Part shown: piece after piece, positions 3,774 to 33,438 of the stretch
How positions within the stretch are numbered: the first letter of the stretch is position 1
Layout of the letters: the number at the start of each line of letters is the position of its first letter
Virus record (IMG/VR): IMGVR_UViG_3300025769_000343
Location: 1-36,880 of that record
Length of the DNA stretch: 36,880 nucleotides
Direction: 5' to 3' (one strand)
Source: a virus
Made by a program: the position numbers and the translations under genes
The notes under the pieces: model-generated
Database searches by the model: none
What the model was told of the DNA's origin: nothing
Seen by the model: the letters and a program-made list of their open reading frames with translations, nothing else

Positions 3774-3931
3774 AATTAGTTCAATTGAACAAATACAAGT
3801 GGGCAGCACTAGATGAAGACGGCACTATCCTAATAATCAGTAGTAACCCCAATATAGTCAGAGCAAATGCACCAATAATAAAAAAAGCTCGCTATAAAAA
3901 GAAATATAACAGGCGAGCAAAGTCTAAGTGA
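3770..3931 (+). CDS. Small basic hypothetical protein carrying a palindrome site near its start
   Basis: 53 residues, starting at GTG which overlaps the previous stop (GTGA). Sequence begins KLVQLNKYKWAALDEDGTIL and ends in a strongly basic tail (KKARYKKKYNRRAKSK). The dispersed palindrome at 3779-3790 lies within codons 4-7. No ribosome site is clear, so translation would depend on coupling. The basic tail suggests nucleic acid contact; this is inference only. Confidence 0.4.
   Translation: MKLVQLNKYKWAALDEDGTILIISSNPNIVRANAPIIKKARYKKKYNRRAKSK
3779..3790. repeat. Dispersed palindrome site 1 (GTTCAATTGAAC)
   Basis: A perfect 12-base palindrome, 7 codon positions or fewer inside the small reading frame that starts at 3770. 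Downstream flank is AAATAC. Confidence 0.85.
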
Positions 3932-4032
3932 TATAACATATTTCATTTTTTGAATGTATATTATGGAGGGGGTGTAGGATTCCTAGCGGTTTGTAATCGT
4001 TTGTGTGGAACATCATGTATATATAAATACGC

Positions 4033-4070
4033 GGGCGCGACTCACGCAGGGGGGGCGGGGGAGAGTGGGG
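4033..4070 (+). other. G-rich block with potential to form a G-quadruplex
   Basis: Plus strand holds GGG (4033-4035), seven Gs (4049-4055), five Gs (4057-4061) and four Gs (4067-4070), in a region that is otherwise AT-rich. It lies in the 200-base convergent gap between the plus genes ending at 3931 and the small terminase ending at 4139. No gene is visible in this gap. A CGCGGGCGCG near-palindrome starts it (4030-4039). Confidence 0.55.
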
Positions 4071-4127
4071 TAATCTAACACATTATAAATTTATACACCC
4101 ACGCTACGACCCACCAGAACCAGAAAA

Positions 4128-4139
4128 GTTCAATTGCAC
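4128..4139. repeat. Dispersed palindrome site 2 (GTTCAATTGCAC)
   Basis: One-base variant of the palindrome, preceded by AAAA. It shares one base with the stop codon of the small terminase gene, just as site 10 abuts the stop of the giant gene. Confidence 0.75.
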
Positions 4140-4645
4140 TATCCAAGCAGCCTGTTCAGTCTAGCCTCTAGCTCTGCCTTGATACTCTCAGCGTCTCGCT
4201 CTGTCTTATCCTCAGTCTCAACCTTGTCAGTAAACAGGGCTACAGATTTCCCCAGTAGCTCTAAGGCTCTGACCCTTGCACCATCTGAGTTGTCCTGATT
4301 GGTTGCCTCATCTGTTAGCTGTTTCAAAACAAAGTCACTTCGAGAGAGGGCTAACATGCGCTGCTGCTTAACCCTATCGGCATTTAACACCTCTAACCTC
4401 TGGGAGACCTTTGGGTTCTGAACCAATAGGCAAGCCTCTGTATGAATACATGCTGCACTCATGTTTGAGGCATCATATGCTAACCTGTATGCATCACTAA
4501 AGTTGTTACCCTCAAACACTGCTAAAGCGAATGCTTCCTGTTTATCTGTTAACCCTGTATTCTTACTGGTGGCACTCTTTCTCCTAGTACCTGTATGCTT
4601 CTTATTGCTACCTACGACTCTTAGCTTAGGTTTCTTATTACTCAT
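4139..4645 (-). CDS. terS: Terminase small subunit
   Basis: 168 residues from the ATG at 4645. After a basic leader it reads LTDKQEAFALAVFEGNNFSD then AYRLAYDASNMS, then VQNPKVSQRLEVL. That is the typical start of the Terminase_2-type small subunit: a helix-turn-helix with LT-KQ--F---- and N-S-AYR-AY, then helix with NP-V--R. A coiled-coil and acidic C-terminus (KTERDAESIKAELEARL) follow and probably drive oligomerisation. It recognises the packaging site and feeds DNA to the large subunit. Start choice: the ATG at 4654 has no space for a ribosome site, while the ATG at 4645 has AGAGG nine bases upstream. It overlaps the interrupted zinc-knuckle frame upstream. Confidence 0.85.
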   Translation of the reverse strand: MSNKKPKLRVVGSNKKHTGTRRKSATSKNTGLTDKQEAFALAVFEGNNFSDAYRLAYDASNMSAACIHTEACLLVQNPKVSQRLEVLNADRVKQQRMLALSRSDFVLKQLTDEATNQDNSDGARVRALELLGKSVALFTDKVETEDKTERDAESIKAELEARLNRLLG

Positions 4646-4853
4646 TAGTGCCATCCTCTAGACGCTGCGCTTGCTTTCGGGATTTTGGGGAAACGCTACA
4701 TCTCCCACAATGTTGCATAACTAGCTATGACCTGAGCGCATGACACCAGTTACAACTAGTGATTCGTTTTACACTGCAATCTGGGGCAAACGATACCCAG
4801 AAAAAGTGCAATAGAACTTTTTTTATCCTAACATCTAAATTTTTTTTTGTCAC
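4638..4853 (-). pseudogene. Zinc-knuckle reading frame interrupted by one in-frame amber codon
   Basis: From a GTG at 4853, with AAGGG five bases upstream, the frame reads about 42 residues ending SCNWCHALRS, then TAG at 4725-4727, and continues in the same frame as LVMQHCGRCSVSPKSRKQAQ to a TAA at 4638. Joined, it holds two CxxC pairs about 14 residues apart and a basic helix with Q-A-Q-R, like small zinc-ribbon proteins of phages. The end overlaps the small terminase start by 8 bases, which is typical of coupled genes. TAG is a normal stop elsewhere in the window (for example 3611, 10395, 18276), so global recoding is unlikely. It may be a recent nonsense mutation, a suppressed stop, or chance. 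The downstream part alone is a 26-residue frame from an ATG at 4718. Confidence 0.4.
4806..4817. repeat. Dispersed palindrome site 3 (GTGCAATAGAAC)
   Basis: A variant core with one half-site GTGC, flanked by five As and seven Ts, so the longer symmetric context is kept. It lies within the divergent region between the small terminase and the plus-strand operon. Confidence 0.8.
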
Positions 4854-6726: not shown

Positions 6727-7407
6727 ATGACAAATTCAAAAACTTTTACCGTGACCGAAACTGCAATCAACAACGTCTACACTGCGGAGCAAGAGATTGT
6801 GAAGCTCAAGGGCGTCAACAAAGAAAACAATGCTGCGGCTAACGGTCATAAAATGGCAGCGTATGGCGAGGTCATTGCTTCTATTTCTCAAGAGAAATTG
6901 GTGAAGGGAAACCTAAAACGCTCTAGCTCTAAAGCTCTCAAGAGCGCACTAGTCGAACAGGCAGGTGTCAAAGAGCCTAGCGCAAAGCGTTACCTAGAAA
7001 ACAGTGTGGGTGCGATTGTACTGCTCAAAGAACATTTTGGTGAGATACCAACTCAGTACACACCTGATGCCATCGTCAAGGATCTAGCAACGCTAGAGAT
7101 CGACAGCGAGAACAAGCTTGCCAAAGCGGTCAAAGGTGAGAGCGACAAGTCAAAAGCGCAGCGCCTCGCAGAGCAAGTTGTCGGCAAGTTCTCAACCAAG
7201 AAAGACGAGAACGGTAACAGAGTTCAAGGCGATGTCTTCAAGGACGGTCTGGACGATGAGGAGCTTGACGAGTTCGAGAACGCCATGCGTGAGTTGATGG
7301 CTGCTCGTAAGGCATACCGCAACTCAGAGGCTGCTAAAGCTGCCGAGGCTGAGGTTGCTGACGAGAACGTGACCGTAGATGCTACGGTTGCTGAGTTCGC
7401 AGCGTAA
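6727..7407 (+). CDS. Hypothetical helical protein with acidic C-terminus
   Basis: 226 residues. Mostly helical: an N-terminal ETAINNVYTAEQEIVKLK, a lysine-rich middle (KRSSSKALKSALVEQAGVKE, then PSAKRYLENSVG) and an acidic tail (DDEELDEFENAMRELMAARK, then EAEVADENVTVDATVAEF). The middle could contact nucleic acid and the tail could be a protein contact. AAGGA lies 7 bases before the ATG. It is the largest of the first early block and ends at a clear terminator. No family recognised. Confidence 0.75.
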   Translation: MTNSKTFTVTETAINNVYTAEQEIVKLKGVNKENNAAANGHKMAAYGEVIASISQEKLVKGNLKRSSSKALKSALVEQAGVKEPSAKRYLENSVGAIVLLKEHFGEIPTQYTPDAIVKDLATLEIDSENKLAKAVKGESDKSKAQRLAEQVVGKFSTKKDENGNRVQGDVFKDGLDDEELDEFENAMRELMAARKAYRNSEAAKAAEAEVADENVTVDATVAEFAA

Positions 7408-7422: not shown

Positions 7423-7448
7423 TCAGCCCCTTCGGGGGCTGAATTTTT
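7423..7448 (+). terminator. Rho-independent terminator
   Basis: Stem TCAGCCCC / GGGGCTGA with a TTCG loop, followed by ATTTTT. This is the only member of the early hairpin family with a U run. It ends the transcript of the gene at 6727, and palindrome site 4 begins three bases later. Confidence 0.8.
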
Positions 7449-7450
7449 AA

Positions 7451-7462
7451 GTGCAATAGAAC
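7451..7462. repeat. Dispersed palindrome site 4 (GTGCAATAGAAC)
   Basis: Same 12-base core as site 3. Located between a terminator and the next gene, 21 bases before the ATG at 7484 and overlapping nothing else. Flanked by TTTTTAA and TTTTTAG. Confidence 0.8.
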
Positions 7463-7483
7463 TTTTTAGAAAGAGAGGTAAAC

Positions 7484-7684
7484 ATGACAAATTATCCAAA
7501 TCCTTGGGAGCTTAACAGCTACAAAAAATTACAGAAGCGTAAAAAAATAGAAGCTCGAATATACGAGCTTATAGATTGGAACGTGCCTGATGACGCACCC
7601 TACTGTGATCATCAGCATAAATGGGGATCGATAGAAGCTCTATACCTTGAGTTAAAACATCGTGATAAGAGAGGTGAAATATAA
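7484..7684 (+). CDS. Small hypothetical protein
   Basis: 66 residues, MTNYPNPWELNSYKKLQKRK then KIEARIYELIDW and a segment with C and three H (PYCDHQHKWGS). The Cys/His cluster could hold a metal but is incomplete. AGAGAGGTAAAC precedes the ATG. Its stop overlaps the next start (TAATG). Function unknown. Confidence 0.65.
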   Translation: MTNYPNPWELNSYKKLQKRKKIEARIYELIDWNVPDDAPYCDHQHKWGSIEALYLELKHRDKRGEI

Positions 7685-9187: not shown

Positions 9188-9240
9188 TCAAGGAAAGCAG
9201 TCATACACTTCAATATGACTGCTTACCATTTCAGCTTTTA

Positions 9241-9252
9241 GTTCTATTGAAC
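9241..9252. repeat. Dispersed palindrome site 5 (GTTCTATTGAAC)
   Basis: In the short gap between the AAA+ gene and its VWA partner, 18 bases before the ATG at 9271. Followed by TTTTTTT and then the GGAG ribosome site. Confidence 0.85.
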
Positions 9253-12385: not shown

Positions 12386-12573
12386 GGCGTTGGACAACTG
12401 CTGAAAAAGAACTGCTAGGCTACAAGCGTAGGCTTGCTAACAATAACATCAAGGTATCTTTATCAAGACCGCCTTGGGAAAAAAGTTCAATAGAACTAAA
12501 AACGGAGGATGACACTGATGTCACACAAGGAAAATCTAGAAGTAATCGAATACGCAAAGAAAGAACTAAGTAG
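12382..12573 (+). CDS. Small basic hypothetical protein containing a palindrome site
   Basis: 63 residues, MRRWTTAEKELLGYKRRLAN and a basic tail. The start overlaps the previous stop (ATGA). The last part overlaps the next gene by about 55 bases and palindrome site 6 lies within it, so the true protein may be shorter or the site may have been inserted. No motif recognised beyond the W-TAEKE start, which is weakly like a Myb or terminase-type helix. Confidence 0.45.
   Translation: MRRWTTAEKELLGYKRRLANNNIKVSLSRPPWEKSSIELKTEDDTDVTQGKSRSNRIRKERTK
12485..12496. repeat. Dispersed palindrome site 6 (GTTCAATAGAAC)
   Basis: Preceded by six As and followed by TAAAAAC and then the GGAGG ribosome site. 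It ends 21 bases before the preferred ATG at 12518. Confidence 0.85.
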
Positions 12574-13917: not shown

Positions 13918-15676
13918 CGTCATCATCTGGATCATTGTAATCGTTTGGCACGTCAAGGAACTCATCAGGTACATACTTCCTGTATGTTGATGTCGGAACA
14001 TCGAACTCAAGCTCAGTCTCTCCCTGCTTACCAACCCATGAGAAACGACACTTCCATATGTGTATCTCTGACATCGGAGACCCAGATGGATTTGGTCTGT
14101 GTACAGTCAATCCAACATCAGCCTTAGCAAACCATGCCGCACTACCAGATATGTCATATCCTTTTGGCGCAGGCACTTTACCATCTGTTCCTCGCATCAT
14201 CTTTGTCGGATGAGCTACGAACCACAAGTGTATCCCATGCGCTTGAGCAAACACTCTAAGCTTTGTCAGTACGTCTGAGATCCACTCAGTCTCGCTGACA
14301 TCCCTTGCCTTTTGAATGTAATTATATGGGTCTATGATAGCTCCCCTGACACCATGTCGAAGCACTGCTATCTTTAATCTTTCGATGATGCTGTCTACAG
14401 ATGACAGAGAACCATCTGCTTGGTACAAAAAAGAAAAGTTCGATTGAACAAATTCTTTTCCGTCCTGTAATTCTTGATGTGTAAGTCTTTGCATTGAGCC
14501 TTGAAAGAAAGGCTTGCGAATATACTTGCTTATCAACTTTGCTATATGCAGTCGTGGTTCATTCTCGAAAGAACATATTGCAAACTTCCAACCTTTTTCT
14601 TGTGCCATGTTAACCATAATCTGGTCTATGAACTCTGACTTACCAGAGGATGGATGACCAGTAACAACCGTAAGCTGTCCTGCTACTACCGTGTACAATT
14701 CGTCTACGTTGTCGTAGCCAGTGCTCTCGCCTCTGCCCATACCGTTCTCGTAGATCTCATCAAGTTGTTCGTAGAAGTGAGAAGCGTCATACAACCCCGC
14801 GACAGGCCACGGTTTACAGTCAACTACAATTTTATCTACGGCATCCTTGCCAAGCTTGACCAGTACGTCATTGGCATCTTTGCACCCCTCTGGGAACTCA
14901 ATCTTGAAGCATCGATCTTTACCAATACGTCTGGCTATCTCTTCTGCCATTGCCTGACCTGCACTGTCTGCATCGGTAGCGATGATGATACGAGCAGCCG
15001 CTTCTATTTTTTTCTTTGCAGCCCATAAGAACTTGAATTTATTATCTTCTTTCGGATCGATCTGTCCATCGACAACCTTCATGACCGCACCGTTTGGCAC
15101 GGACACAACGCTATCATAACCTGTTTCGATGAACGCAAGAGCATCCATCTCACCCTCACAAATTATAAGATCATCATTACGCTCCACGCCCTGCACGTTG
15201 AAGAATGTCTGAGGTGCACCGCTACATGCGAAGCCTTTGTCCTCTATCGATCTTATCTTGTATGCATATTCCTGACCCTCATTGGTGTACGGAAACATGA
15301 TGCATTCAGTTTCTTTTCCTAGTGCCTGTATCCAATGACGAGCTGAAACTAATCCTACTTTGGTAGCTGTTTCTTTACTGATGCCTCTTCCTTGAAGCCA
15401 TGCCTGGCAGTCTTCTGTTAATTCTTTTCTTTGAACTTTTTTTGCAATGGACATTGTTGTTTCTCTCTTGATCTCTGGTAACTCCTCTCGCATAGGAACA
15501 ATACCTTGCTGACCACAGTGCCAACACTGATACAAAGTTTTGTCTTGTTCTATACGGAGAGAAAGTGTTTTATCGTTTTTCTTTTTGCGGCTGTGACTAC
15601 AGCTTGGGCATTTGATTTTATGCTGACCTTCACCCAATCTATAAGCCTCGCCACGAACTTCTTGTTCGATGTGCAC
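13898..15676 (-). CDS. Bifunctional primase-helicase (T7 gp4 type)
   Basis: 592 residues. Zinc-binding primase domain with CPSC (C23, C26) and CWHC (C51, C54); TOPRIM domain with CEGEMDALAF (E174) and ATDADSAG (D235, D237); RecA-like helicase with Walker A GHPSSGKS (340-347), SFENEP (E371), Walker B AIIDPYNYI (D449) and a FVAHPTK sensor segment. It makes primers and unwinds the fork. Start: the frame extends to a TTG at 15733 without a ribosome site; the GTG at 15676 has GGAG 8 bases upstream and is preferred. Upstream is the AT-rich tract at 15752. Palindrome site 7 lies inside the helicase part. Confidence 0.93.
   Translation of the reverse strand: MHIEQEVRGEAYRLGEGQHKIKCPSCSHSRKKKNDKTLSLRIEQDKTLYQCWHCGQQGIVPMREELPEIKRETTMSIAKKVQRKELTEDCQAWLQGRGISKETATKVGLVSARHWIQALGKETECIMFPYTNEGQEYAYKIRSIEDKGFACSGAPQTFFNVQGVERNDDLIICEGEMDALAFIETGYDSVVSVPNGAVMKVVDGQIDPKEDNKFKFLWAAKKKIEAAARIIIATDADSAGQAMAEEIARRIGKDRCFKIEFPEGCKDANDVLVKLGKDAVDKIVVDCKPWPVAGLYDASHFYEQLDEIYENGMGRGESTGYDNVDELYTVVAGQLTVVTGHPSSGKSEFIDQIMVNMAQEKGWKFAICSFENEPRLHIAKLISKYIRKPFFQGSMQRLTHQELQDGKEFVQSNFSFLYQADGSLSSVDSIIERLKIAVLRHGVRGAIIDPYNYIQKARDVSETEWISDVLTKLRVFAQAHGIHLWFVAHPTKMMRGTDGKVPAPKGYDISGSAAWFAKADVGLTVHRPNPSGSPMSEIHIWKCRFSWVGKQGETELEFDVPTSTYRKYVPDEFLDVPNDYNDPDDDDDPLPF
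14438..14449. repeat. Dispersed palindrome site 7 (GTTCGATTGAAC)
   Basis: Inside the primase-helicase coding sequence, away from any gene boundary. Preceded by AAAA. Its presence here argues that the motif is not simply a promoter. Confidence 0.85.
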
Positions 15677-17205: not shown

Positions 17206-17966
17206 GTAAAGAAAAAAGTTCAAGTGAACTTTCTGTTTGGGAAGATCTAAGTAAAAAAGATCTTTCAGAAAGAATAGAAACTAAAGATTACAAAACTAAA
17301 AGCGGTAAGCCCTATAGCTTAAAATATATATCTTGGGCTTGGGCTTGGGGCGAAGTAAAAAATTCTTACCCCGATGCATCTTACGAGGTTCATGATAACA
17401 TCACCTATCCAGACAGCACAGTTGAGGTTAGGGTTAGCGTTACGATCAAAGGGCAAACGCATATGATGTGGCTTCCAGTTATGGATTATAAAAATGATGC
17501 TAAAAAAAATCCCACATCAAAAGACATCAGTGATAGCAGGATGCGATGTTTTGCAAAGGCTATAGCAATGCATGGTCTAGGTCACTATGTATATGCAGGT
17601 GAGGATCTGCCAGAGAGCAACGGAGAAGTCCCTCAGAGTGAGGTAAAGGCTGAAGAGGCGGTTGACCCTATCCAAAAGACTGACGCGCCTCCACCGCCCC
17701 CTAAAGAGAGCACACCAGATATAGTAAGTGCTGAGGATGATATGGGTAATGTCATAACTAAAGAGACTGACGGTTGGGATATGGTAACCGATGCCTTCAC
17801 TGAGCTTATGAAGGTACACAAGACTTATGAAAGTCTTGGTAAGCTTTGGAAGAAAAACAAATCAGCTTTGAATTTATTACAAACCAATAGACCAAGCGAC
17901 TACGAAGAACTTCTAACTAATTTTAAGAAACGTGCAAAAGAACTAAAGGAGAAAGCTAATGGCTGA
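17202..17966 (+). CDS. Sak/DUF1071-type single-strand annealing protein
   Basis: 254 residues. The core reads KYISWAWAWGEVKNSYPDAS then MMWLPVMDYKN and SRMRCFAKAIAMHGLGHYVY followed by AGEDLPE. YLSWAWAW and the MRC-KA-A--GLG-Y-YAGEDLPE block are typical of DUF1071/Sak annealing proteins, which pair complementary single strands in phage recombination. The C-terminal third is a proline-rich linker (DAPPPPPKES) and a helical tail. Start at 17202 overlaps the previous stop, with GGAGG 5 bases upstream. Palindrome site 8 lies within the first ten codons. Confidence 0.85.
   Translation: MSKEKSSSELSVWEDLSKKDLSERIETKDYKTKSGKPYSLKYISWAWAWGEVKNSYPDASYEVHDNITYPDSTVEVRVSVTIKGQTHMMWLPVMDYKNDAKKNPTSKDISDSRMRCFAKAIAMHGLGHYVYAGEDLPESNGEVPQSEVKAEEAVDPIQKTDAPPPPPKESTPDIVSAEDDMGNVITKETDGWDMVTDAFTELMKVHKTYESLGKLWKKNKSALNLLQTNRPSDYEELLTNFKKRAKELKEKANG
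17218..17229. repeat. Dispersed palindrome site 8 (GTTCAAGTGAAC)
   Basis: Inside the annealing protein gene, 13 bases after its first codon. Preceded by AAAAAA and followed by TTT. The central four bases differ (AAGT), but both GTTC/GAAC half-sites are kept. Confidence 0.75.
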
Positions 17967-19676: not shown

Positions 19677-20119
19677 ACGAGATTAGAGATGCAGCCATGA
19701 ACTTTGAGGCGGTAAAGGTATCGATGTCACAGGACAGAAACGGTATCATACTGCGCCTTAACGTACATCCTAATGACTGCCCACCAGAACTACACACTGA
19801 TTGGGTAGGCACTAGATATGTTGTGGCAATGGTTAGGCTCAACGATCAAGACGAGCCAGAGACAAGAGAAGAACATCAACACATTGAAAGATTAATAGCA
19901 TCGGCAGGCTTGCTGTGCCGTAATCCAGAGTTTGGAAAGTACATGAACGATGTGGGATATATAAACGAAAGTGACCCAGTCAATCTTGAAAGAGCGGTGA
20001 CTAAAGCAGTAAGAGAACATTGCAACATACAGTCTAGATCAGAGTTTAGGGACAGCCCAGAAGCTCGTAAGAAATTTGAACAACTTAGAGAGGACTTTAA
20101 GTCATGGAAGAAAGGTTAA
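19673..20119 (+). CDS. Conserved phage hypothetical protein
   Basis: 148 residues. The N-terminal half is a strand-rich module, FEAVKVSMSQDRNGIILRLN then VHPNDCPPELHTDWVGTRYV and VAMVRL, which I recognise as a recurrent phage module of unknown function, often near replication genes. The C-terminal half is helical and charged. GAGTGAGAG precedes the ATG. It overlaps the AlpA-like gene by 16 bases. Confidence 0.7.
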   Translation: MNEIRDAAMNFEAVKVSMSQDRNGIILRLNVHPNDCPPELHTDWVGTRYVVAMVRLNDQDEPETREEHQHIERLIASAGLLCRNPEFGKYMNDVGYINESDPVNLERAVTKAVREHCNIQSRSEFRDSPEARKKFEQLREDFKSWKKG

Positions 20120-20292
20120 TTGATTTGAACGAGGTTGCTCGAATGATGTCGATGCATCCCAAGTCAGCAAGAAAAATAATAAAGAATGAAGATGAGTTCC
20201 CAGACCCGATAGTATTTAGTCAGCGTGTTAAGCGTTGGAAGTATTCATCGGTTATCAAATGGATAGAGAGTAAAGATAGCAGTGAAGAATAA
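20104..20292 (+). CDS. AlpA/excisionase-like DNA-binding protein
   Basis: 62 residues: RLIDLNEVARMMSMHPKSAR then KIIKNEDEFPDPIVFSQRVK and RWKYSSVIKWIES. This is the AlpA / MerR-like winged helix: L-EVA-M---H--SARK----D-FP-P----R--RW--S-V--WI. Such proteins act as transcription regulators or recombination directionality factors. No integrase is visible in the window. Palindrome site 9 begins at the base after its stop. It is the only strong candidate regulator here. Confidence 0.8.
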   Translation: MEERLIDLNEVARMMSMHPKSARKIIKNEDEFPDPIVFSQRVKRWKYSSVIKWIESKDSSEE

Positions 20293-20304
20293 GTTCAATT
20301 GAAC
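20293..20304. repeat. Dispersed palindrome site 9 (GTTCAATTGAAC)
   Basis: Fills the gap between the convergent stops of the AlpA-like gene (ends 20292) and the giant gene (its TAG begins at 20304 on plus), sharing one base with the latter. A weak bidirectional terminator role is possible. Confidence 0.85.
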
Positions 20305-23300
20305 TATCTGTAATCTTTCATGATCTCATTGCCACGAGCATAAAGCATTTGTTTCTTTTCATCTAACCTGTCTAGGATCAATTGCTTTTGTGCGTCTGGC
20401 ATATTTACATTATCACGCACAGCGTTTTGTTGTCGTGATATTTTTTTGATCGCATTGTTTATAGCTCTAACGCGAGGTATTAATGTAAACTCTTCTGCGT
20501 ATTTTTCTCTAGCTCTTATAAGCCTGTCTCTATCCCCTGCATCTTGTGCTGCTTTTATCTCTGCCGCAACGCGGAGAACCTTGTCTCTTTTCTCTACAAA
20601 GATACCAATGTTTTCTCTGTCAGATACAGTGCCGTAAACCTTACGAACAAAAGGAACTTCTCTTGCTAGATCTTGAGAAAGACCTTCAGCATAGGCTGTG
20701 GTAGGAACGTCCACGAATGTTCTCTTTGCAAACCTTCCAATACCACCAGTTAAAAAATCAAACCAGTAATCCATAATCTCTGGATTCCAGTCTACGAAAC
20801 CAGAGATCTCGCTTGTTCCCCCTGTTAAAGAGTTTAAGTTTTCTGCAACCCATTTAGCCGATGGGCTGACGTTATTAAAATATCTTTGACTATCAGGAGA
20901 GTCATCGCCAGGATACGCCTGCTTATATACTGGAACACCTGCGTAATTTTCATTTCTCATGATCTCTACAAAAGGATCAAATGCAGTTGGCACAGCAAAG
21001 TTATATAGATTTTCTGTTCCACCTATTGGGTTGAGTGCATCCACCGCAGTCATCACCATACTAAGGCCGCCCTCTGACGCAGAGTATTCACCCCTCATAG
21101 TTCTGCTCAATGCTCGACCTGCATTGACCGCTGCGTTTAATCCATAGGGCATGGGTATTGCTAGGTAATCCCGACCTGCACCAAGATCACCTAATGGCAA
21201 GACCATATTATGTTCTAGAATATAATCTGGTATCTTATCGTAAATTAATATGCCATCTTCATCCTCTTCGGAAACAAGAGAGTTCACAAAGTCTTGGAGT
21301 GCGCCCATTCCTATGAGACCAATCCATATGGCTTGTACTTTTTTAGATCTTAGTAACGCATTGAAAAGTGCAAATGAACCTTGGATAGATGCGTTGTAAA
21401 ATAGATACCAAGAGTTCATGAACGTCTTTAGTTCTCCACCCTTACCAAAGTTTACCGTTACATTCCTAGCCGCTTGAGCTGCTCGCGCCCCTGAGAAACC
21501 CTGCTTCTTTAAATTGTGGTATGTGGTAACACGGATAGCATTCTCGATTACGGTGTTATAGTTCTCTAGAAAATTTAATATTGAACCTGCGCCCTTGCCG
21601 ACAAAGCTGTTCTTTACTTTATTAAACTTACCTCGAATACCATCCTCTTGTATATCTCCTAGTATCTTATTAATGTTCTCAACTTGATCAGCAATACTTG
21701 TCATGGGGTTTGCAGAGTTCTGACCGCCGTCACGAACAAAGTCTCTATAGATCTGAGACCATTCACTGCTCTCATCTCCATTTACAATGGCACGTTTAAT
21801 TCCTACGAATGCTTTTCTGTAGTCCTTAGCCATAGCTCCGACCATGCCTTTAGCATCGAACTGTTGGACATTCACACCTGCTGTTTGCAAGTCACGAACC
21901 AAGTTAGTTATCATAAACTCTGGGTTGTAAGATGTGTTTATGTTTGACAGGTATCTATTTAATTTGCCCATCGCACGATTGATTGTAGCGAGAGTACTAG
22001 ATCCAGTACCGTCTGAACCTTTCAGTGCTCTACCTAATCTCTTGTCTGCTAACTCAACATAAACATCTTTGCCGTTTACCTTTGCCACAAATATATTATC
22101 ACTATCTGCTGCAAACCTATCTACAATTTCAACTACATTCCCAGAAGAACTCAATGCTCTGGTTGTCGGTACACTATCAAGGATACGTCCATACCCACGA
22201 GTTTCGTTTGGTTTGCTTTCCAGTAAGCCAATGAAAGCCTGACCTACTTTGTTTCTTTCACCCCTGATAACTGCGTTTTGATTTTGATCTAACACAGTTG
22301 CAAGTATGTCGGTTGCATAATCATATCTACCAAGAGCACGTCTATCTTCTCTTCCCCTAACACCAAAAGGACTTCCGCTTCGTGGCCTCACAAAACTCAT
22401 GTCATTATCTGTTGGGTCTTCTTTGCCACGCAGAGGAACGTAGTTGTTAAAGTTTCTATCTTGCCGTAAATCTTCAGGGATTAACCCGTAATCTGCGCGG
22501 GAATCATTCGTGTTTCTTATTATATCTCTTATTCCAGATTGCATTCTTTGTAATTTTAAAGCGTTATCTGGATCAAGAGTTGCAACCCAAGCGAGTATGG
22601 CGTCAGCCTCTGCATCAGACATTCCAGAACCTGAGTCATTGCTTGGGTCTCTTGTTCTTATAAATGCATTTCTTTCTTTGGCATGAGTGGCATAAATAAC
22701 TGCTTCACCCACGGCTTGTTTTTTACTTCCATAAGATGACAAGGCTTGCTTTACAAATCCATTTCCAGTCTCAGATGCCGCATCAGATAAACCCTCAAGC
22801 CTATCAATACTATCTTGAGATATATTTAATTGATCTATGGCATCAACTGGAGCAGCATACAGATCTTGTCTTGCCCTTAATTCTTCTGGAACTTTGCCGT
22901 GATAAAGTTCTTCTGTTAGATAAGCGTCAAAAGCATCTGGTATTTCTACGTTATTTTCTTGAAGCTCCTGATACATACGACCTACAGAAATGAAGTCATC
23001 TTGAAATTGATTTATTATTTTATCCGCTATGTCTTGAGATTTACTCTGCGGAATAAAATATCCTAATTTTCTTGCTATAAAGTCAGAAGCTTTGGCGTAG
23101 CTTAGATCATATTTCTTTTCTTCTATCTGAACAGGAAGGGAACTAAGCATTGTAGACTGTCTGTATGAATGTGTATTAGCTACAGTCTTACGAGCTTTCT
23201 TTTCCAATATAGGGAAGAATGTTTTTACATAATAAAAATTTGGCTGAAGAGTTGATACTTGCTTGCCTCTTGTTGAAACATCACTGCCTCTCTCTAACAC

Positions 23301-26300: not shown

Positions 26301-28454
26301 TCTATCTAGATAGGTGTACTTTCTTAGCTCTGGCTTACCCTTCTTGCTTTTTACATACTTTGCTTTTGCTGCTGCACTTGTAAGAGTTTGCCACTCCTTG
26401 TCTTTTATGACGTTCATATTCTTTAGGGCGTGTGTTGTCTCGTGATCGAGAACCTCACCAACCCTTTCAAAGAGTTGCTTCTCAGATAGCTTAGGATCAT
26501 AGACACCCATAGATAGACTTATCATTCTGTTGGTAGGGTTGTATTCAAAGCTTCCTTCAATACCCTCGCCTTCTTCGTCTCTTACTAACTGTTCCGCACT
26601 TAGCTTAACATCTTTTAATCCGTACTTATTAAGCCTCTTACGAATATCCTTAAATACTTTCTCTTGTTTTTGTGTAAGAGCAGGAGTGTATACAGGTTTG
26701 TTCGATTGAACTTTTTCTTGAACAGAGTCAGCTATCCTTCTTGCTTTGGCTGCTGCTATTTTTGTTTCAAGCTTCTGAGCTTTGTTAAACTCAGGTGTAA
26801 CTTTTGGAACATATGGAAGGTTGCCAAGCCTGTTAAGTGCTGACTGAGATTCGTTGATAACAGTTGAGTACTGTTTGTTTCTTTCGTTAAGCCTATCAAT
26901 CTCATATTGAATAGCTTTCTCACTGGTTCTTCTGCCCTGTAGGTCTCTGCCGTATTGACGTACAGAATCAAGATCAAGCTTCAGGTCTTTAATAATATTG
27001 TTGTTCTTTTCTGTAGCTTCACTAGCTATATCGATCTGTCTTCTGTAAGAAACATCTGGAGTTTTAAGCTGAGGCTGTATGTTGGTTGTTGGCGTAAACC
27101 TTCGACCAACCCTATTAACATATCCACGACCCACTAGTTCATTCATTACATCTGTTACTTGAGGCACAGTAGTTTTGCCTACATCTTTACTAACCTGCTG
27201 TTGAATAGAAGAAAGGTTTAAAGTTTTTTCTCTTGCAGTATCAGATTTAACCTGCTGTAGAATCCTATCGTATTGAGCTTTGGTGAATGTCTTATTCTTA
27301 AACTCTTCATCTGTTGTGACCTCTGCAACTGCAAGAGGATCTACAGGTCTTTGTTCTTTTACAGGAGGCTGCTCCGCAGCTATCGCTTGATCGTTTTGTT
27401 TTTCTGCCTCAGTTGTAAGCTCTTGTGATATTACGCTTGCGTAACCAAGTCTCTCTCTTGTGTCAGTCGTAAGTTCTTTTAGATCAGCTATAAGCTGCTC
27501 GTCTTTTTCTGCCTCTTTCTTTAACCGCTCTTGTTCTTTCTTATCTTTTTCTTTCTGTGCTTCTCTTTCTCTTATAGATTTACTGGTCAGTCTTTTGTTT
27601 GTGGCAATATCTATTGGAGCACCAACAACAGCGGCTGCGCCTCCGCCAAGTAAACCTTCACCTAAAGCTTCTTTAAAGCTAAGATCAAGACCCTTGTCGG
27701 TTAATGCTGTCTCACTTGTCTGCTGAATTAAAGCCTGCAACCCTTCCGTGCCTGCTTCTACAATTGTTCTTCTTAAAAAGCTAGACATGCCTGGAGCTAT
27801 CGCATTTACAGCACCGCTTGCACTTGAACCTGCTATAGATCCAAGCCAGTCATCTGCGTTAGGAACGTCCCTCCCGTTGTTTCTGGCTCTCTCATTTGCA
27901 ATCGGGCCAAGCAACTGAACTGCCTCAAAAAGTGCAGGCGCAGTAAATCCACCGATTAAAGCGCCAGGCGCTCCTCCGATTAAACCCCCACCGATAACAC
28001 CTGCGCCTCTTGCTGCCATAGACCCTACGAACTGACCTGCTTGTTCTGCTAAAGCTCTTGGCATATAACGGAAGTCAAATCCGAACCCATCTGGATTTAA
28101 AAACTTACCTGCTGCGCTCTCGTAGTTTTCTGGCCCTTCAACTAAGTCACTAAAGAAATCACCAGTACCTTCATATCCAAGAGACCTTGCTGTCTCTGCT
28201 ATGTTTTCGAGGGGCTGATCAAGGGCAAACTTAAAAGCACTAGATACAGATCTGTCAGGCTCAGGAGCTTCCTCTCTTGCGAGAGACCTAATACCACCAC
28301 CATATTGTTGCTCAAAGGCTCTTCTAAAAGGGGCTTCTTGTTGTTCTAATATCTGAGATATTCGGCTTGCTTCTTCTGGTGTGGGTGTATCACCTGCTAT
28401 TGTAAAGCTGTATGGCTCACCAGAGAACTGACCTAGTTGCTGAATAACCCCCAA
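20304..28454 (-). CDS. Giant polyvalent protein with zincin-like motif and LPD38-like C-terminus
   Basis: 2716 residues, about a fifth of the window. The N-terminus has a glycine-rich hydrophobic stretch (about residues 149-172) that could cross a membrane. A zincin helix HETTHAL lies at residues 671-677 after EVLD. Near residue 2370 there is a hydrophobic segment (AIWIGLIGMGALQDFV), within a part that resembles the large polyvalent protein domain LPD38 (TFMNSWYLFYNASIQGSFAL, and a final DWNPEIMDYWFDFLTGG). Such proteins are thought to be packaged and injected with phage DNA and to counter host defences. Start is TTG with AAGGAG 7 bases upstream. Palindrome site 10 is inside the gene. Confidence 0.85.
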   Translation of the reverse strand: MGVIQQLGQFSGEPYSFTIAGDTPTPEEASRISQILEQQEAPFRRAFEQQYGGGIRSLAREEAPEPDRSVSSAFKFALDQPLENIAETARSLGYEGTGDFFSDLVEGPENYESAAGKFLNPDGFGFDFRYMPRALAEQAGQFVGSMAARGAGVIGGGLIGGAPGALIGGFTAPALFEAVQLLGPIANERARNNGRDVPNADDWLGSIAGSSASGAVNAIAPGMSSFLRRTIVEAGTEGLQALIQQTSETALTDKGLDLSFKEALGEGLLGGGAAAVVGAPIDIATNKRLTSKSIREREAQKEKDKKEQERLKKEAEKDEQLIADLKELTTDTRERLGYASVISQELTTEAEKQNDQAIAAEQPPVKEQRPVDPLAVAEVTTDEEFKNKTFTKAQYDRILQQVKSDTAREKTLNLSSIQQQVSKDVGKTTVPQVTDVMNELVGRGYVNRVGRRFTPTTNIQPQLKTPDVSYRRQIDIASEATEKNNNIIKDLKLDLDSVRQYGRDLQGRRTSEKAIQYEIDRLNERNKQYSTVINESQSALNRLGNLPYVPKVTPEFNKAQKLETKIAAAKARRIADSVQEKVQSNKPVYTPALTQKQEKVFKDIRKRLNKYGLKDVKLSAEQLVRDEEGEGIEGSFEYNPTNRMISLSMGVYDPKLSEKQLFERVGEVLDHETTHALKNMNVIKDKEWQTLTSAAAKAKYVKSKKGKPELRKYTYLDRAKKMYADKSPEIQIEEAVAEMFRDYNAGRLKITGKPRTILDKIKNFFKSIIGGNLENGFTDAATIFDDINLGEIGSRERAPLPEESIKVDKDADAVETPAKASRLPRSSSVPSLQGFIKDNPDGFTVDPITLEPVSGGFVVAPLKQAEIIVGETLPEEVLLGYIEDNKDISRAINRPVYLGGWFDGESKQYFLDNTLIVPTAEEALYIAEAADQLAIFNLNNFEEIRTNEGIEGLKQSGAYRSDAAIGYQRNLAEVGRRFEEARNKRNALEREQLTGGVEGFRQSRLTLPLTPKQRAASVLDYLDPNTGEPKFRSKEGSETLVSFANKLLQFRGAPEYDLINSAEDRESVARIMAAEAEAALLSSSDALGWYDTTLKLAKQTLFPVYPEVSPTRPDGTDNPLYSSASEHAFDYATAVTSNGLSVIDNYLLAARQYDAWKNSQDGKFPLSSSGKQGQSMIKAWEFWNALTNLGYDSDQINELLTTQLPKGELASLMTEVFGVDRVKDLPFKIDGKEQADQMVGVAYVIGPKIGNGFYQNLRGNFDPLTMDRWWMRFVNRITGKPIVQYNEELVQKNKDTLWNLVSNPEQLSEMDQDLLATVLDDLGVTTLEKSDIELLAPQIMSTWDKSFYNKAYNDKLNDLSDQYDFNISGATITGKDAATVKKIAQDARPESTPLAKAGKNLANKLVESLQEDPRSAADRAAMRATANRAREILRESNQLGVNISNADFQALMWYAEKRIFAAGGVRKGRGDDNDYADGAIAILKKKGISDGKIEATLPKAERGRLSGVKLELERDSEIGREIDTIQDTTGERNFFSPRELELEDYSQSVQGQITPEERAELNSVETNPQLPPQRYPSRFAVFDPEVEPTAEDYRKSYMLERVPVKKSDRGQTPSPVYGKILEGRTERLVVLPTGLQNNHANGIQDGHGLVHIQQRNHDKDLFMNSKYGRVEEAIRDLLDRWRRQDFQDGEDVISYQNQNKLVLEWRKNITNGSPPLRLVLERGSDVSTRGKQVSTLQPNFYYVKTFFPILEKKARKTVANTHSYRQSTMLSSLPVQIEEKKYDLSYAKASDFIARKLGYFIPQSKSQDIADKIINQFQDDFISVGRMYQELQENNVEIPDAFDAYLTEELYHGKVPEELRARQDLYAAPVDAIDQLNISQDSIDRLEGLSDAASETGNGFVKQALSSYGSKKQAVGEAVIYATHAKERNAFIRTRDPSNDSGSGMSDAEADAILAWVATLDPDNALKLQRMQSGIRDIIRNTNDSRADYGLIPEDLRQDRNFNNYVPLRGKEDPTDNDMSFVRPRSGSPFGVRGREDRRALGRYDYATDILATVLDQNQNAVIRGERNKVGQAFIGLLESKPNETRGYGRILDSVPTTRALSSSGNVVEIVDRFAADSDNIFVAKVNGKDVYVELADKRLGRALKGSDGTGSSTLATINRAMGKLNRYLSNINTSYNPEFMITNLVRDLQTAGVNVQQFDAKGMVGAMAKDYRKAFVGIKRAIVNGDESSEWSQIYRDFVRDGGQNSANPMTSIADQVENINKILGDIQEDGIRGKFNKVKNSFVGKGAGSILNFLENYNTVIENAIRVTTYHNLKKQGFSGARAAQAARNVTVNFGKGGELKTFMNSWYLFYNASIQGSFALFNALLRSKKVQAIWIGLIGMGALQDFVNSLVSEEDEDGILIYDKIPDYILEHNMVLPLGDLGAGRDYLAIPMPYGLNAAVNAGRALSRTMRGEYSASEGGLSMVMTAVDALNPIGGTENLYNFAVPTAFDPFVEIMRNENYAGVPVYKQAYPGDDSPDSQRYFNNVSPSAKWVAENLNSLTGGTSEISGFVDWNPEIMDYWFDFLTGGIGRFAKRTFVDVPTTAYAEGLSQDLAREVPFVRKVYGTVSDRENIGIFVEKRDKVLRVAAEIKAAQDAGDRDRLIRAREKYAEEFTLIPRVRAINNAIKKISRQQNAVRDNVNMPDAQKQLILDRLDEKKQMLYARGNEIMKDYR
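26700..26711. repeat. Dispersed palindrome site 10 (GTTCGATTGAAC)
   Basis: Inside the giant gene. Same core as site 7. Followed by TTTTTC. Confidence 0.8.
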
Positions 28455-28468: not shown

Positions 28469-30688
28469 CTATGCAGAAACTGCTGTGCCTAAGTCTAGAC
28501 CACTTTGAGTTTGAGTTCCACCAGTAACATCAAAAGAATTGCCTGCTTGCTGAACGCCACCACCAAGACCTAATGATTTTCTTATACGACTTAATCGCAA
28601 TTCTGTTCTAAAAATTTCTTGCTGTATTCTTAGTCTTTCTCGTTCTTTAGTATCCTCAGTCATCATTGGGTATTTAGTTGCATCCTCAAGATCAAGTAAT
28701 TGTTTTTGAAGTCCGTCTCTAGAATCACGAAGGTCATCTAACAAACTGACCATTGTTCCAGGAGTCATCCCACTTGTAGTGCTTTCTTGATCAAGCACGT
28801 CTAGCTTATACTGCATGTTCATCAAATCTAAGATGTCATCATCGTATTGTTGTCTAGCTTCACTAAGAGATCTAAGACCCATGAGACCTGCTTCACCTAT
28901 AGCACCTGCTAATGTTGGGTTGTCTGATGCCATAAGCGCCATGCCAGTCTGTGCAAGTGCTAACCACTTGTCGGACTCTAAGCTCTTCTCTCTTTCGTCA
29001 AGCATTCTCTGTATTCTTGATCGTAAAGGATCGCTGTATCCAGTTCCAGAATCACCGCCTGTTGCAGAAGCTGTCGCTGTTTTAACAACCTTGTTGCCAA
29101 GAGGTGATGTTGATGTGTCTTGAGTATCATTACGAGCAAACTCTGTTAAGTTAGTAGATAATGCCTCACCGCCTGCTTCTCCACCGCCCAACGAAATGTT
29201 ATTCAATGCGCTTGGTGATGTATTATCTGCTGACGGTGCATCACCTGCTATTTGTGGTGCTGTGTCTGGAGCAGATCCGTCAGGCAGCATAGAAGAATAT
29301 TTATCAATAGTGTCATCTATTGCGCCACCTAGTATTTCTCCACCAGAAACAATAGCATCTCCTAATTGTGACCCAATACTATTTGGATCAGGATTTTGTG
29401 AACCCATGTCTTCTATGTTTTGTTTTATTCTATCAAGATCAAATATATCCGCTAAACTAATATTGGAATTAGCGTCACCAATGCCACCAAACATTCCTCC
29501 ATCTGGTATTGGATCTACTTCGTCACTTGTAAATAGTGGAGTTTGATCTGGCTGTTCGAGGCTACCCTCTCTATTCATTTCTGAGATCATATTTGTCATG
29601 TAATCATCCGCAGCCTGAGCCTGAGCCTGAGCTTGAGCAACACGATCAGCAGCTTCTTGAGCAGTTTCACCTGCATTTAAATCAGATGCCGCGTCAGCCA
29701 CTTGTGGATATTCTAATAGGGGCGATTGAAAATAATCATCAAATTCTGGCGTGATTACTTCACTGATCTGAGATGGCATTGTTCCTACTGGTGACATATC
29801 ACCACTAAAGCCGCCCACTATACTAGATGGCACTGCTTGAGTGTCTATATTAGGAGCAGACATCTTTCTTGCTTGTATGATTGACTCAGGCAGAAAACCA
29901 ACTGCACCTGCAAGAGGCTCTGAAAAGCCGCCATCTGGATCTAAAAGCGGATCGTTAATATATTTCTGAGCCTGTAATGATGAACTACCATCCTCTGGCG
30001 CACTAGCTCTAAGCCTAGATAAAGATTTGGCTCTGTCTTCTAGTTCTCTAGCTTCCTGACCTTGATCTATCTTTGTCTGGTTTGCCATCGCCTGAAGCGA
30101 AGGAATCGGGTTAAACTTCTCTAAAAAACTAGGCTCTCTTTCTAATCCTTCTAGTCCAGTTTGCTCTGGCTCAGTGGGCATAATCCCCGAATTGTTTAAA
30201 TAGTAAAGAGCTACTCGCTCTAATGCGGCAGGATTATCTTTATACTTTGCATACTGATCAGGTCTTTGAAATCTTAAAAGCTCAATGGCATCCATAGGGT
30301 TTCGATCAAGACTGTATGTGCCAAGAGGCCCACCATTAGCCATACTAACAATGCCACCTTCAGCCATCCTCTGCGGCATACGAGTAGGCTCTCTTTGCAC
30401 TGCCATGTCTGCACCTGTATTTTGTGCAATTGAACTATTTGGAGCCATGTTCCTTGCGATTGCAGTCAAGCCCTCTTGTGGTGCGCCTGCTGCGGTCATC
30501 ACTTCTTCTGCAACTGTAGGCATATTAGCAGCTTCTTGACGCTTGTAATCCTCACGCATTCTCTTGCGTCTTGTCAGCTCACTGAGAACTAGAAACTGCG
30601 GCATGTTACCTGATGGAGACTGCATCTCCTTCATTAACACACGATCAGGAAAGTCTTTAAGGTTGTCTTGAAGCTCTATTATATTCAT
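28469..30688 (-). CDS. Virion-associated protein with AEGGI motif
   Basis: 739 residues. N-terminus reads MNIIELQDNLKDFPDRVLMK then SGNMPQFLVLSELTRRKRMR, which I recall from marine phage structural proteins. RMAEGGIVSMANGG (about residues 107-120) is a glycine motif of the same kind as in the 421-residue protein at 32147. The middle is acidic, Ala/Gln/Asp-rich and probably disordered; the C-terminal 200 residues are helical (SLESDKWLALAQTGMALMAS, then QQYDDDILDLMNMQYKLDVL). Likely an internal or ejected virion protein. The start overlaps the previous gene's stop (GATGA). Confidence 0.65.
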   Translation of the reverse strand: MNIIELQDNLKDFPDRVLMKEMQSPSGNMPQFLVLSELTRRKRMREDYKRQEAANMPTVAEEVMTAAGAPQEGLTAIARNMAPNSSIAQNTGADMAVQREPTRMPQRMAEGGIVSMANGGPLGTYSLDRNPMDAIELLRFQRPDQYAKYKDNPAALERVALYYLNNSGIMPTEPEQTGLEGLEREPSFLEKFNPIPSLQAMANQTKIDQGQEARELEDRAKSLSRLRASAPEDGSSSLQAQKYINDPLLDPDGGFSEPLAGAVGFLPESIIQARKMSAPNIDTQAVPSSIVGGFSGDMSPVGTMPSQISEVITPEFDDYFQSPLLEYPQVADAASDLNAGETAQEAADRVAQAQAQAQAADDYMTNMISEMNREGSLEQPDQTPLFTSDEVDPIPDGGMFGGIGDANSNISLADIFDLDRIKQNIEDMGSQNPDPNSIGSQLGDAIVSGGEILGGAIDDTIDKYSSMLPDGSAPDTAPQIAGDAPSADNTSPSALNNISLGGGEAGGEALSTNLTEFARNDTQDTSTSPLGNKVVKTATASATGGDSGTGYSDPLRSRIQRMLDEREKSLESDKWLALAQTGMALMASDNPTLAGAIGEAGLMGLRSLSEARQQYDDDILDLMNMQYKLDVLDQESTTSGMTPGTMVSLLDDLRDSRDGLQKQLLDLEDATKYPMMTEDTKERERLRIQQEIFRTELRLSRIRKSLGLGGGVQQAGNSFDVTGGTQTQSGLDLGTAVSA
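30424..30435. repeat. Dispersed palindrome site 11 (GTGCAATTGAAC)
   Basis: Inside the 739-residue protein gene; it is the exact reverse complement of site 2. Flanked by TATTTT and TATTTGG. Confidence 0.65.
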
Positions 30689-31731: not shown

Positions 31732-31732
31732 T

Positions 31733-32146
31733 TTATAACTCCATTCGGTAAGCTATGTATTCAGGATAAAATCCGTATTTTTTCAAAGCTCTACCCCAAC
31801 CTTTTCTTCCATAGCCCTCTAGATGACTACATCCTAACTCATTTCCGTAACGCTTCATAGTGTCAATCAACTGATCTTCCCACTCTTTCATCTGCGTTCC
31901 GCCTACCCAATCTAATGCCAGTGCTCTACGTCTAGGATATTGTATTAGTCTTGTGGTAAATGCAGCTATTATCTTATCATCTTCATTCATCACAACCCAA
32001 AGAGCATACATGCCTTCATAAACCCCAGTTAATATATCAATCACTTCTGATTTATCTTTGACTGTATCTACTGCTCTTTTTAATATCTCATCAACGTCCT
32101 TCCATACACTGCCAATTGCCTCTTGAGGCACTAAGCTAACTTTCAA
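31733..32146 (-). CDS. GNAT-like protein within the virion gene block
   Basis: 137 residues from TTG at 32146 with GGTGG five bases upstream. Strand-helix order fits a small GNAT: MYALWVVMNEDDKIIAAFTT, RALALDWVGGTQMKEWEDQL, then SHLEGYGRKGWGRALKKYGF. The last block (G-GRKGW-RALKK-GF) resembles motif B of phage GNATs. The acetyl-CoA loop is not clear. Third GNAT-like gene of the window. Directly follows the 421-residue gene. Confidence 0.6.
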   Translation of the reverse strand: MKVSLVPQEAIGSVWKDVDEILKRAVDTVKDKSEVIDILTGVYEGMYALWVVMNEDDKIIAAFTTRLIQYPRRRALALDWVGGTQMKEWEDQLIDTMKRYGNELGCSHLEGYGRKGWGRALKKYGFYPEYIAYRMEL

Positions 32147-33412
32147 TTATCCCACCATTTGTTCAAGTTTCTCAGGAGCATCCTCTTCAGCACGGTTAAT
32201 CATATCAAGGAAGCCACCACCATATGCTTTCTCCAGAGCATCAGTAGTATTCTTCCTCAGCACAAACTCCCCATCAGACAGGAGAACGTCTTGCTCTCCC
32301 TCAAGTGTTGCAGGAACCATGTCATCAACTCCAGAACCATCTCCTGGGCCTCTTACCATTCCTTTATCACCCTCTGCAAAACGAGCTACAGTATCATCTA
32401 ACTCACCCGACTGCACTCGCCCGACAAGATCGCGTAATGCGTCCTCGCCGTACTTCTGAACAAACATAGCTAAAGCTATTTCTGGTTGATCAGACATTTC
32501 TTTGATTGCTTTTATGGCCTCGACAATAACATCTTTTTCATTCATGCCACTGTCTTCCATCATCTCATCTACTTCTGCTTCTCCACCTTCAGCAAATCCT
32601 AAGACTCCTCTAGCCCCCTCTACGATAGCATCCATTGGAACTTGCGGCATAGATCTAGATAAGTTTCCAATAAACTCCATAGCCTTATCTAACGGAACCT
32701 CTTTACTTGAACTGCCTCCATCACCTAAAGATGCAATGCCCCCCTCTGCATAGGTGTATGGATACTTAGGTGTACTACCATCTGCTCTAGGTCTTCTTCG
32801 GTACTGAAAATATAGACCTTCACCTGGGCTTCCCCCGTAAGGATTGGGGTTATAACTTCTTACCATTGGGTTTGGCATAGGTGGTCTTGTTTCTTTGTCC
32901 TCGTCATCGCCATCTTTTTTTGCTGCACGATTCTCAATCATCTGCATATCTGCCATAGATTGACCAAGCATAGCAGGCATAAAAGCTTGCTGCCCTGCCG
33001 TGAATGCACCACCCTTAGTGCCAGTACCAAACGGCATTGCTGCTGACGCAGTGTCTGCACCCAGAACTTTAGTCGCTAAATCAGATGCGCCACCACTAAC
33101 AACAGAAGTTGCTGACGGACTTGGTGCTGTAAAACTCTGTAGTAAACTTGGCTTTGCGACAGGCGCTCCTTGAGCTGCTGATGCTGCTGCTCCACTTGTA
33201 GATCCAGACAGACCACCCAGTATTTTGCCGCCAAGGAAAGAGGTCATACCTGTTTGTATGCCTTTACCTATGTCACCTGTCTGAACAAATGATCCTAATC
33301 CTGCTCCTATTCCTGCTAATGCAGGCACTGACATCGCCCCAAGGGTAGCCCCAAGCGCACCTGTACCTGCTAATGCAGGTAGACCAACGCTAAATAGTAG
33401 AGGAAGAACCAT
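32147..33412 (-). CDS. Virion or membrane-associated protein with AEGG motifs
   Basis: 421 residues. The first 70 are glycine/alanine-rich and hydrophobic (ALAGTGALGATLGAMSVPAL), suggesting insertion into a membrane. YAEGGIASLGDGG lies near residue 202 and FAEGGEAEVDE follows. The C-terminus has VRGPGDGSGVDDMVPATLEG then EQDVLLSDGEFVL, a phage structural motif (G-GDG--D-----L--GE-VL). Likely a tail or ejection protein. GGAG lies 6 bases before the ATG, and palindrome site 12 is 14 bases upstream. Confidence 0.6.
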   Translation of the reverse strand: MVLPLLFSVGLPALAGTGALGATLGAMSVPALAGIGAGLGSFVQTGDIGKGIQTGMTSFLGGKILGGLSGSTSGAAASAAQGAPVAKPSLLQSFTAPSPSATSVVSGGASDLATKVLGADTASAAMPFGTGTKGGAFTAGQQAFMPAMLGQSMADMQMIENRAAKKDGDDEDKETRPPMPNPMVRSYNPNPYGGSPGEGLYFQYRRRPRADGSTPKYPYTYAEGGIASLGDGGSSSKEVPLDKAMEFIGNLSRSMPQVPMDAIVEGARGVLGFAEGGEAEVDEMMEDSGMNEKDVIVEAIKAIKEMSDQPEIALAMFVQKYGEDALRDLVGRVQSGELDDTVARFAEGDKGMVRGPGDGSGVDDMVPATLEGEQDVLLSDGEFVLRKNTTDALEKAYGGGFLDMINRAEEDAPEKLEQMVG

Positions 33413-33426
33413 CTAAATCTCCAAAA

Positions 33427-33438
33427 GTTCTATTGAAC
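33427..33438. repeat. Dispersed palindrome site 12 (GTTCTATTGAAC)
   Basis: In the gap between the endolysin stop and the start of the 421-residue gene, 14 bases before its ATG on the minus strand. Flanked by CCAAAA and TTTAAC. Confidence 0.85.

Follow-up and report, generated by a model that had tools for sequence, protein, structure and literature searches.

A dispersed 22-bp palindrome in a lineage of uncultured phages and its possible role at the boundaries of transcription units

The window analysed here is the whole of the 36,880-base IMG/VR virus record IMGVR_UViG_3300025769_000343, and the element under study is a short palindrome, GTTC-N4-GAAC, which recurs along it between and within genes. 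A first-pass annotation of this DNA reported eight perfect copies and four variants in which one half reads GTGC, and put the total at 12 or more. All twelve exist, and two further GTGC variants, at 17932 and 21368, bring the window total to 14 (eight perfect sites and six with one GTGC half). The sites, a neighbouring terminator and two genes considered below as encoding the binding protein are listed here; distances are in nucleotides (nt).

3779..3790, perfect site GTTCAATTGAAC, between the gene 3222-3611(+) and terS(-), which converge
4128..4139, half-variant site GTTCAATTGCAC, abuts the terS stop codon; a site lies 6-14 nt past the terS stop in 8/8 long records
4806..4817, half-variant site GTGCAATAGAAC, upstream of terS; a site lies 102-172 nt before the terS start in 8/8 long records
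6727..7407, + strand, b226, orphan protein predicted to be all-helical, with a conserved segment resembling a helix-turn-helix (residues 65-104); first candidate binder
7423..7450, + strand, predicted intrinsic terminator, abuts the site at 7451
7451..7462, half-variant site, immediately follows the terminator; the ATG at 7484 lies 27 nt past its centre
9241..9252, perfect site, centred 24 nt upstream of a VWA-type gene that starts at 9271
12485..12496, perfect site, centred 27 nt upstream of the c253 gene, whose ATG is at 12518
14438..14449, perfect site, lies within the primase-helicase gene; conserved in 21/21 non-redundant relatives
17218..17229, perfect site, in the first codons of a Sak-like annealing gene; 1/4 aligned relatives have it
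17932..17943, half-variant site GTGCAAAAGAAC, centred 21 nt upstream of the start at 17959
20104..20292, + strand, AlpA-like small protein, putatively DNA-binding; weaker candidate binder
20293..20304, perfect site, fills the junction at which the AlpA-like gene converges with the gene for a protein of 2716 amino acids (aa)
21368..21379, half-variant site, inside the 2716-aa gene; the aligned place holds a site in 9/15 sequences; does not pass the A/T-flank filter
26700..26711, perfect site, also within the 2716-aa gene; retained in 2/3 aligned sequences
30424..30435, half-variant site, inside a 739-aa gene, at 258 nt from its start in 6/8 long records
33427..33438, perfect site, centred 20 nt upstream of where the gene 32147-33412(-) starts

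The excess of perfect copies in the window, which had been described as strong, is confirmed: eight are found where 0.53 are expected, and none of 100 dinucleotide shuffles reaches eight (maximum 3). Codon-preserving shuffles, proposed as a check in the first-pass annotation, give a mean of 0.475 and a maximum of 2 (n=200). GTTC also heads the inverted repeats of the form 4-N4-4 by frequency, both in the window and in each of the seven long relatives compared. Allowing any one mismatch gives a modest excess, with 24 matches for 13.2 expected and one shuffle in 100 reaching 24. A chance origin is ruled out by the two kinds of shuffle together with the enrichment across relatives.

That enrichment extends over the whole lineage. 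Relatives with a TerL 83-100% identical carry 173 perfect copies in 729,683 bases from 80 loci, where about 10.8 are expected from base composition; many of these loci are close relatives, and four pieces of the window itself (L001-L004) were excluded. Twenty of the relatives' records, picked for length from the 80 loci and including one nearly identical to the window (L005/G020), were searched whole and gave 139 matches, with every record represented, against 12 for the reversed pattern. The same search of eight named phages outside the lineage (023Pt_psg01, HTVC027P, DSL-LC04, HTVC023P, MinM2, CRP-902, CRP-810 and CRP-7) returned background, five matches against nine for the control; these phages were covered whole in this test, while the outgroups in the logo, spacing and protein-universality comparisons were partial (34-41 kilobases, kb). 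In a blind scan of IMG/VR viral contigs for the 18-mer AAAGTTCAATTGAACTTT, 35 of 41 stretches belong to this lineage, as judged by shared genes, a known TerL or a shared contig, and six (L159, L170, L175, L176, L182 and L187) have no gene in common with a reference relative. The palindrome can therefore serve as a compact metagenome diagnostic for the lineage. A full-text literature search for the 12-mer GTTCAATTGAAC returned only a plant paper, in keeping with the earlier remark that the sequence was new, and among the matches listed for dispersed palindromes or repressor sites in phages none was recognisable as this lineage.

Weaker sites were removed by an A/T-flank filter before sites were counted for spacing, stop and start codons, terminators, junctions and variants; 13 of the 14 window sites pass it, the one at 21368 being lost. 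After filtering, examined records of at least 35 kb hold 8-18 sites, with 18 in each of the two longest (58 and 62 kb), a density of about one per 2.4-5.5 kb; four records (G010, G043, G044 and G047) were represented by their first 20,000 bases. The 62-kb record, G006, a near-full relative, has an imperfect duplication at its two ends (93-2066 and 60061-62148) and may be a chimera assembled from two relatives.

Symmetrised over 77 perfect copies, the logo describes a palindrome of 22 base pairs (bp), approximately WWWWA-GTTC-AATT-GAAC-TWWWW. The base adjoining GTTC is A in 123/154 half-sites and T in 24/154, and the centre is AATT-like. The A runs before and T runs after the core that had been noticed in the window are thus real; the wings measure about 5 bp per side. 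One kind of departure from this core is common. In ten main-clade records under the strict A/T filter, a T-to-G change at the third base of one half occurs 35 times, and any other single change at most twice. A looser filter yields 138 sites in the same ten records, 90 perfect, 48 with a single variant half and none with two, where independent halves would give 4.2 double variants (Poisson P 0.015). At both sites flanking terS, the GTGC half stands on the upstream side in some clades and on the downstream side in others, which argues that the site has no fixed direction. A subclade of five records (G029, G025, G023, G043 and G031) has mostly AATT centres, and GTGC is rare in it.

These variants bear on whether the palindrome works as a nucleic-acid hairpin, that is, as a weak terminator or as a processing or attenuation signal in RNA or DNA. 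A 4-bp stem with A/T wings could form, sites stand in for terminators at some convergent gene ends, and the pairing-restoring form GTGC-N4-GCAC does occur in unfiltered counts outside the ten records, three times in G015 (57% G+C) and once each in G023, G046 and G047. Base-paired RNA would favour the double change, however, and in the main clade 48 of 138 sites carry an unpaired position with none compensated, so that a protein dimer on DNA fits better; we regard a hairpin as very improbable.

The core itself has a counterpart in bacteria: the LexA box of the Verrucomicrobia is TGTTC-N4-GAACA. The phage sites could be bound by a host factor, for which a LexA-type repressor is the closest match. 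Of 31 Akkermansiaceae lexA loci (L214-L244; one locus plus the best 30 of 49 matches), 18 carry tGTTCN4GAACa upstream of lexA, in agreement with the known box, and 17 of these boxes lie within about 40 nt of the start of the LexA domain; in addition, one contig bearing b226 sits in an Akkermansiaceae metagenome-assembled genome (MAG). Against this, the lexA boxes have T before GTTC in 18/18 cases and no preferred centre, while the phage sites mostly have A there and an AATT-like centre. The MAG-borne relative (L213) has no site, and phages of 41 to 57% G+C, which probably have different hosts, have one motif in common. The exact phage 14-mer occurs in four of 288 Verrucomicrobiota genomes, once in each, though the factor could come from a host of another clade. 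A host factor is, in our view, improbable.

Several sites keep their positions among relatives, as the first-pass annotation expected of a functional element, and one of them allows DNA-level conservation to be separated from that of the protein. The copy inside the primase-helicase gene is present in all 21 non-redundant relatives (27 before removal of those more than 95% alike). Synonymous identity at its codons is 0.984 against a gene mean of 0.533, ranking second among 605 windows. The six codons read TTT GTT CAA TCG (A/C)AC TTT, with other variation in one sequence only (CAG for CAA), and the encoded residue alternates between Asn and His exactly as GAAC or GCAC demands. To judge from this alignment, selection is acting on the DNA at this copy, and a symmetric site prevails over codon choice within a replication gene in relatives whose G+C ranges from 41 to 57%. 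Other intragenic copies are less telling: the site at 21368 is present in 9/15 sequences, that at 17218 is a negative case (1/4), and the sites at 26700 and in the 739-aa gene (30424), with three aligned sequences each, are uninformative for conservation.

The first-pass annotation had concluded from copies inside coding sequence that the sites are not simply promoters. Some copies are indeed intragenic, but this understated the bias toward intergenic DNA: with gene boundaries from our own simple gene caller, which also underlies the junction counts below, 50 of 77 perfect copies in eight long records are intergenic, against 17% of positions. The 19 records examined contain 210 A/T-flanked sites, of which 59 stand at stop codons (4.9% for random positions) and 51 lie 17-35 nt upstream of a start (10.9% for random positions), some rows of the latter type being internal Met codons (G004 22135, G006 22146 and G007 39233); ten sites are at both a stop and a start and 110 at neither. 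Sites are found in 23/34 convergent junctions, 18/36 divergent ones and 82/712 codirectional ones. Most codirectional junctions are almost gapless, and 70 of the 249 with a gap of at least 30 nt hold a site. Measured by that yardstick, the convergent excess has a Fisher p of 1e-5, an optimistic value for a reason given below, and the divergent excess is weak (p 0.012). The robust excess is between genes generally and at convergent ends in particular.

The sites upstream of starts are what would be expected of operators at which a classic repressor or other regulator controls initiation at adjacent promoters. Such a regulator would also account for the fact, described below, that many sites abutting terminators leave little space for a promoter clear of the site. 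The sites at convergent junctions and deep inside genes, on the other hand, have no evident promoter. Moreover, a search confined to the PF00589 family found an integrase in 0/12 long records, and HTH_3 is present in 4/12, so that a lysogeny repressor is not evident. We consider control of initiation as the main function distinctly unlikely.

Sites and predicted intrinsic terminators are related in two ways. First, 16 of 198 predicted terminators have a site within -12..+60 nt, where random positions would give about 4, and 12 of these 16 sites lie at -3..+5 nt. Nine of these 12 sites also have a start codon 22-27 nt beyond their centre, giving the order terminator, site, ribosome site, ATG. 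This arrangement is seen at 7423-7484 in the window and likewise in G002, G004, G006, G025, G029 and G031, with scarcely space for an ordinary promoter. Second, sites and terminators are partly complementary at convergent junctions: 18 carry a site without a terminator, 8 a terminator without a site, 5 both and 3 neither (Fisher p 0.008, to be read with the same caution). The end of the giant 2716-aa gene and the end of terS mostly have a site, the primase/c253 junction mostly a terminator.

Copies between a terminator and a ribosome site could alternatively form the core of a phage-specific promoter, and the number of sites per genome resembles that of T7 promoters. The symmetry of the site, the flipping of its degenerate half and the filling of convergent junctions by sites do not suit a promoter, and no gene for an RNA polymerase or sigma factor was recognised by eye in the gene list of G006. 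This explanation is quite improbable.

The explanation we favour, with a probability of roughly 0.4, is that the palindromes are dispersed operators of one dimeric protein and act as transcription roadblocks or insulators independent of direction. A single symmetric DNA-binding protein, presumably phage-encoded, would read all of them, and once bound would mainly block transcription from either direction where transcription units end or start. The site would replace an intrinsic terminator at several convergent gene ends, and behind some terminators it would separate the T-run from the next gene's ribosome site.

Our first choice for this protein is b226, tentatively, since by our own estimate it would prove wrong about twice as often as right. 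It is present in 18 of 22 motif-bearing records, the divergent subclade included (E 1e-26 to 1e-35); the four records that lack it are fragments 24-30 kb long. Its long second helix opens with a K and an R that are invariant in 29/29 aligned members, down to 33% domain identity, and are mostly followed by (Y/L)xEN(S/A), with exceptions in L142, which reads EG, and L202, which reads DN. In 8/14 records b226 is followed downstream by a site at 7-165 nt, a distance that may be off by tens of bases where b226 ends were set by hand. Sequence searches place the protein nowhere: in Pfam the best value is 0.13 for the window protein, and 30 members hit scattered, weak and unrelated families (best 0.00034); PDB sequence searches give best E values of 0.11 and 0.35; and tblastn against 50,697 phage records finds no match. 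In BFVD there is one structural relative, from an uncultured phage, at 48% identity. The central domain is predicted confidently, with a predicted local distance difference test score (pLDDT) of 92 and a predicted template modelling score (pTM) of 0.81.

Two other proteins were considered. The AlpA-like protein, singled out in the first-pass annotation for binding assays, turns out to be the weaker candidate: its recognition helix varies among nine homologues, and it occurs in 15/22 motif records (two of them with internal stops) against 18/22 for b226. TerS is disfavoured because the close relatives L012 and L110, whose TerS is 69% and 68% identical, carry a replacement of its helix region. 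In L012 the TerL is 97% identical, yet the 7.8-kb locus keeps one perfect and three half sites. As a separate observation, the central helix region of terS (window 4139-4654) has been replaced in some relatives, L012, L110 and L125 among them, while the rest remains similar, which suggests recombination or packaging-site switching.

A number of observations count against roadblocks read by b226. Per kb of junction DNA there are 2.05 sites at convergent, 1.15 at codirectional and 0.92 at divergent junctions, and the raw divergent excess (18/36) is mostly due to junction length. The convergent junctions represent a small number of orthologous places that recur from one related record to the next, which makes both p values for them optimistic. 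As many as 82 of the 210 sites lie well inside genes, where a pure boundary element would not need them. Spacing is more even than random in 13/13 records, with P<0.05 in 8, which also fits a genome-organising role. As to the reader, MoxR, TerS and a 699-aa protein are as universal as b226, being found in 11/11 relatives and, like b226, in 0/3 partly covered outgroups (34-41 kb). L213 (1-6724) encodes a b226 of about 50% identity and a TerL of 79%, and has no site in its 6.7 kb; its b226 reads KK in place of KR, in a comparison that disregarded the out-of-frame translation of the G025 protein. Foldseek and VIA-align, run with the whole of b226 or its well-predicted domain, returned nothing informative (best Z 5.4 and 5.2), which gives no ground for calling the predicted fold new. 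L213 is a phage contig binned in the Akkermansiaceae MAG UBA985, a placement that may hint at the host or be a binning error.

The even spacing leads to the main rival, in which a phage protein bridges, condenses, segregates or protects the DNA, as at dispersed centromeres or the sites of nucleoid organisers, and the sites are intergenic because they are cheapest there. Besides the spacing, the presence of sites in early and late regions, the strictly conserved intragenic copy in the primase-helicase gene and the similar densities per kb of codirectional and divergent gaps would all be consistent with genome-organising sites. They do not, however, predict the convergent-junction excess or the complementarity with terminators, and no ParA/ParB pair was noticed by eye in the gene list of G006, for which no dedicated search was made. 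One protein of that record (34557-35387) is ParB-N-like by eye only and has no tblastn match in the window. We judge a genome-organising role unlikely, though the strongest of the alternatives.

Returning to the roadblock explanation, it can be combined with b226 in a more specific proposal, namely that a lineage without a recognisable integrase replaces part of its intrinsic terminators by symmetric protein roadblocks spread over the whole genome, that a new DNA-binding family, b226, reads them, and that recognition segment and operator have co-changed, one subclade accepting GTGC half-sites and AATA centres and the other almost only AATT. Taken jointly, these statements are unlikely to hold. 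Were the roadblocks real, they would offer a terminator-free way to bound transcription units, and an orphan protein family would be exposed as their likely reader. Genome-wide dispersed operators have so far come from a few cultured temperate phages; the present case would add an uncultured lineage and a symmetric version.

Two other parts of the window deserve mention. The 2716-aa protein (window 20304-28454) matches only giant PHROGs, whose function is not assigned in PHROGs. At 8129-10395, a gene for a MoxR-type ATPase is followed by a partner gene, a pair conserved in the lineage; the PHROG of the partner is named HNH endonuclease, and by eye the protein is VWA/metallopeptidase-like.

Several known systems share part of this picture. 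The Verrucomicrobial LexA box has the identical GTTC-N4-GAAC core and spacing, and differs in its flanking T and its lack of a centre preference. Phage N15 has dispersed palindromic centromere sites in its genome. The sites here are far more numerous and are in excess at convergent gene ends, and no partition locus was noticed by eye, a dedicated search not having been made; the centromere comparison made in the first-pass annotation is neither favoured nor discounted. T7-like promoters are dispersed between and within genes in similar number per genome, and in this the two sets are alike; those promoters are directional and asymmetric, whereas the site here is symmetric, and no phage RNA polymerase gene was recognised by eye in G006.

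Phage SPbeta offers another precedent. Its repeated element SPBRE lies in various intergenic regions and was predicted in silico 24 years before the discovery of its repressor, MrpR, a protein with a tyrosine-recombinase fold that maintains lysogeny (PMC10516654). The likeness is that of a repeated element in phage intergenic regions; in contrast to MrpR, b226 has no useful match to a known fold, and no PF00589 integrase was found here. The stoperators of Cluster A mycobacteriophages, to which the layout had first been compared, are described as 20-30 short conserved sites per genome, in short intergenic spaces and proposed to stop elongation; they are 13-14 bp long, lack dyad symmetry, follow the direction of transcription and are bound by the phage immunity repressor as a monomer (PMC9283540, PMC6550527). 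The comparison holds for the many copies of a short site dispersed over a phage genome, fewer here (8-18 after filtering), and for sites that appear to behave as protein-binding sites. It does not hold for their form: the L5 sites are asymmetric, read by a monomer and oriented, while those of the present lineage form a 22-bp palindrome with a flipping degenerate half and no fixed direction, and no repressor-integrase locus was seen here. With a working that would resemble that of stoperators but without their defining asymmetry, the palindromes are best described as a variant, and not a member, of that class.

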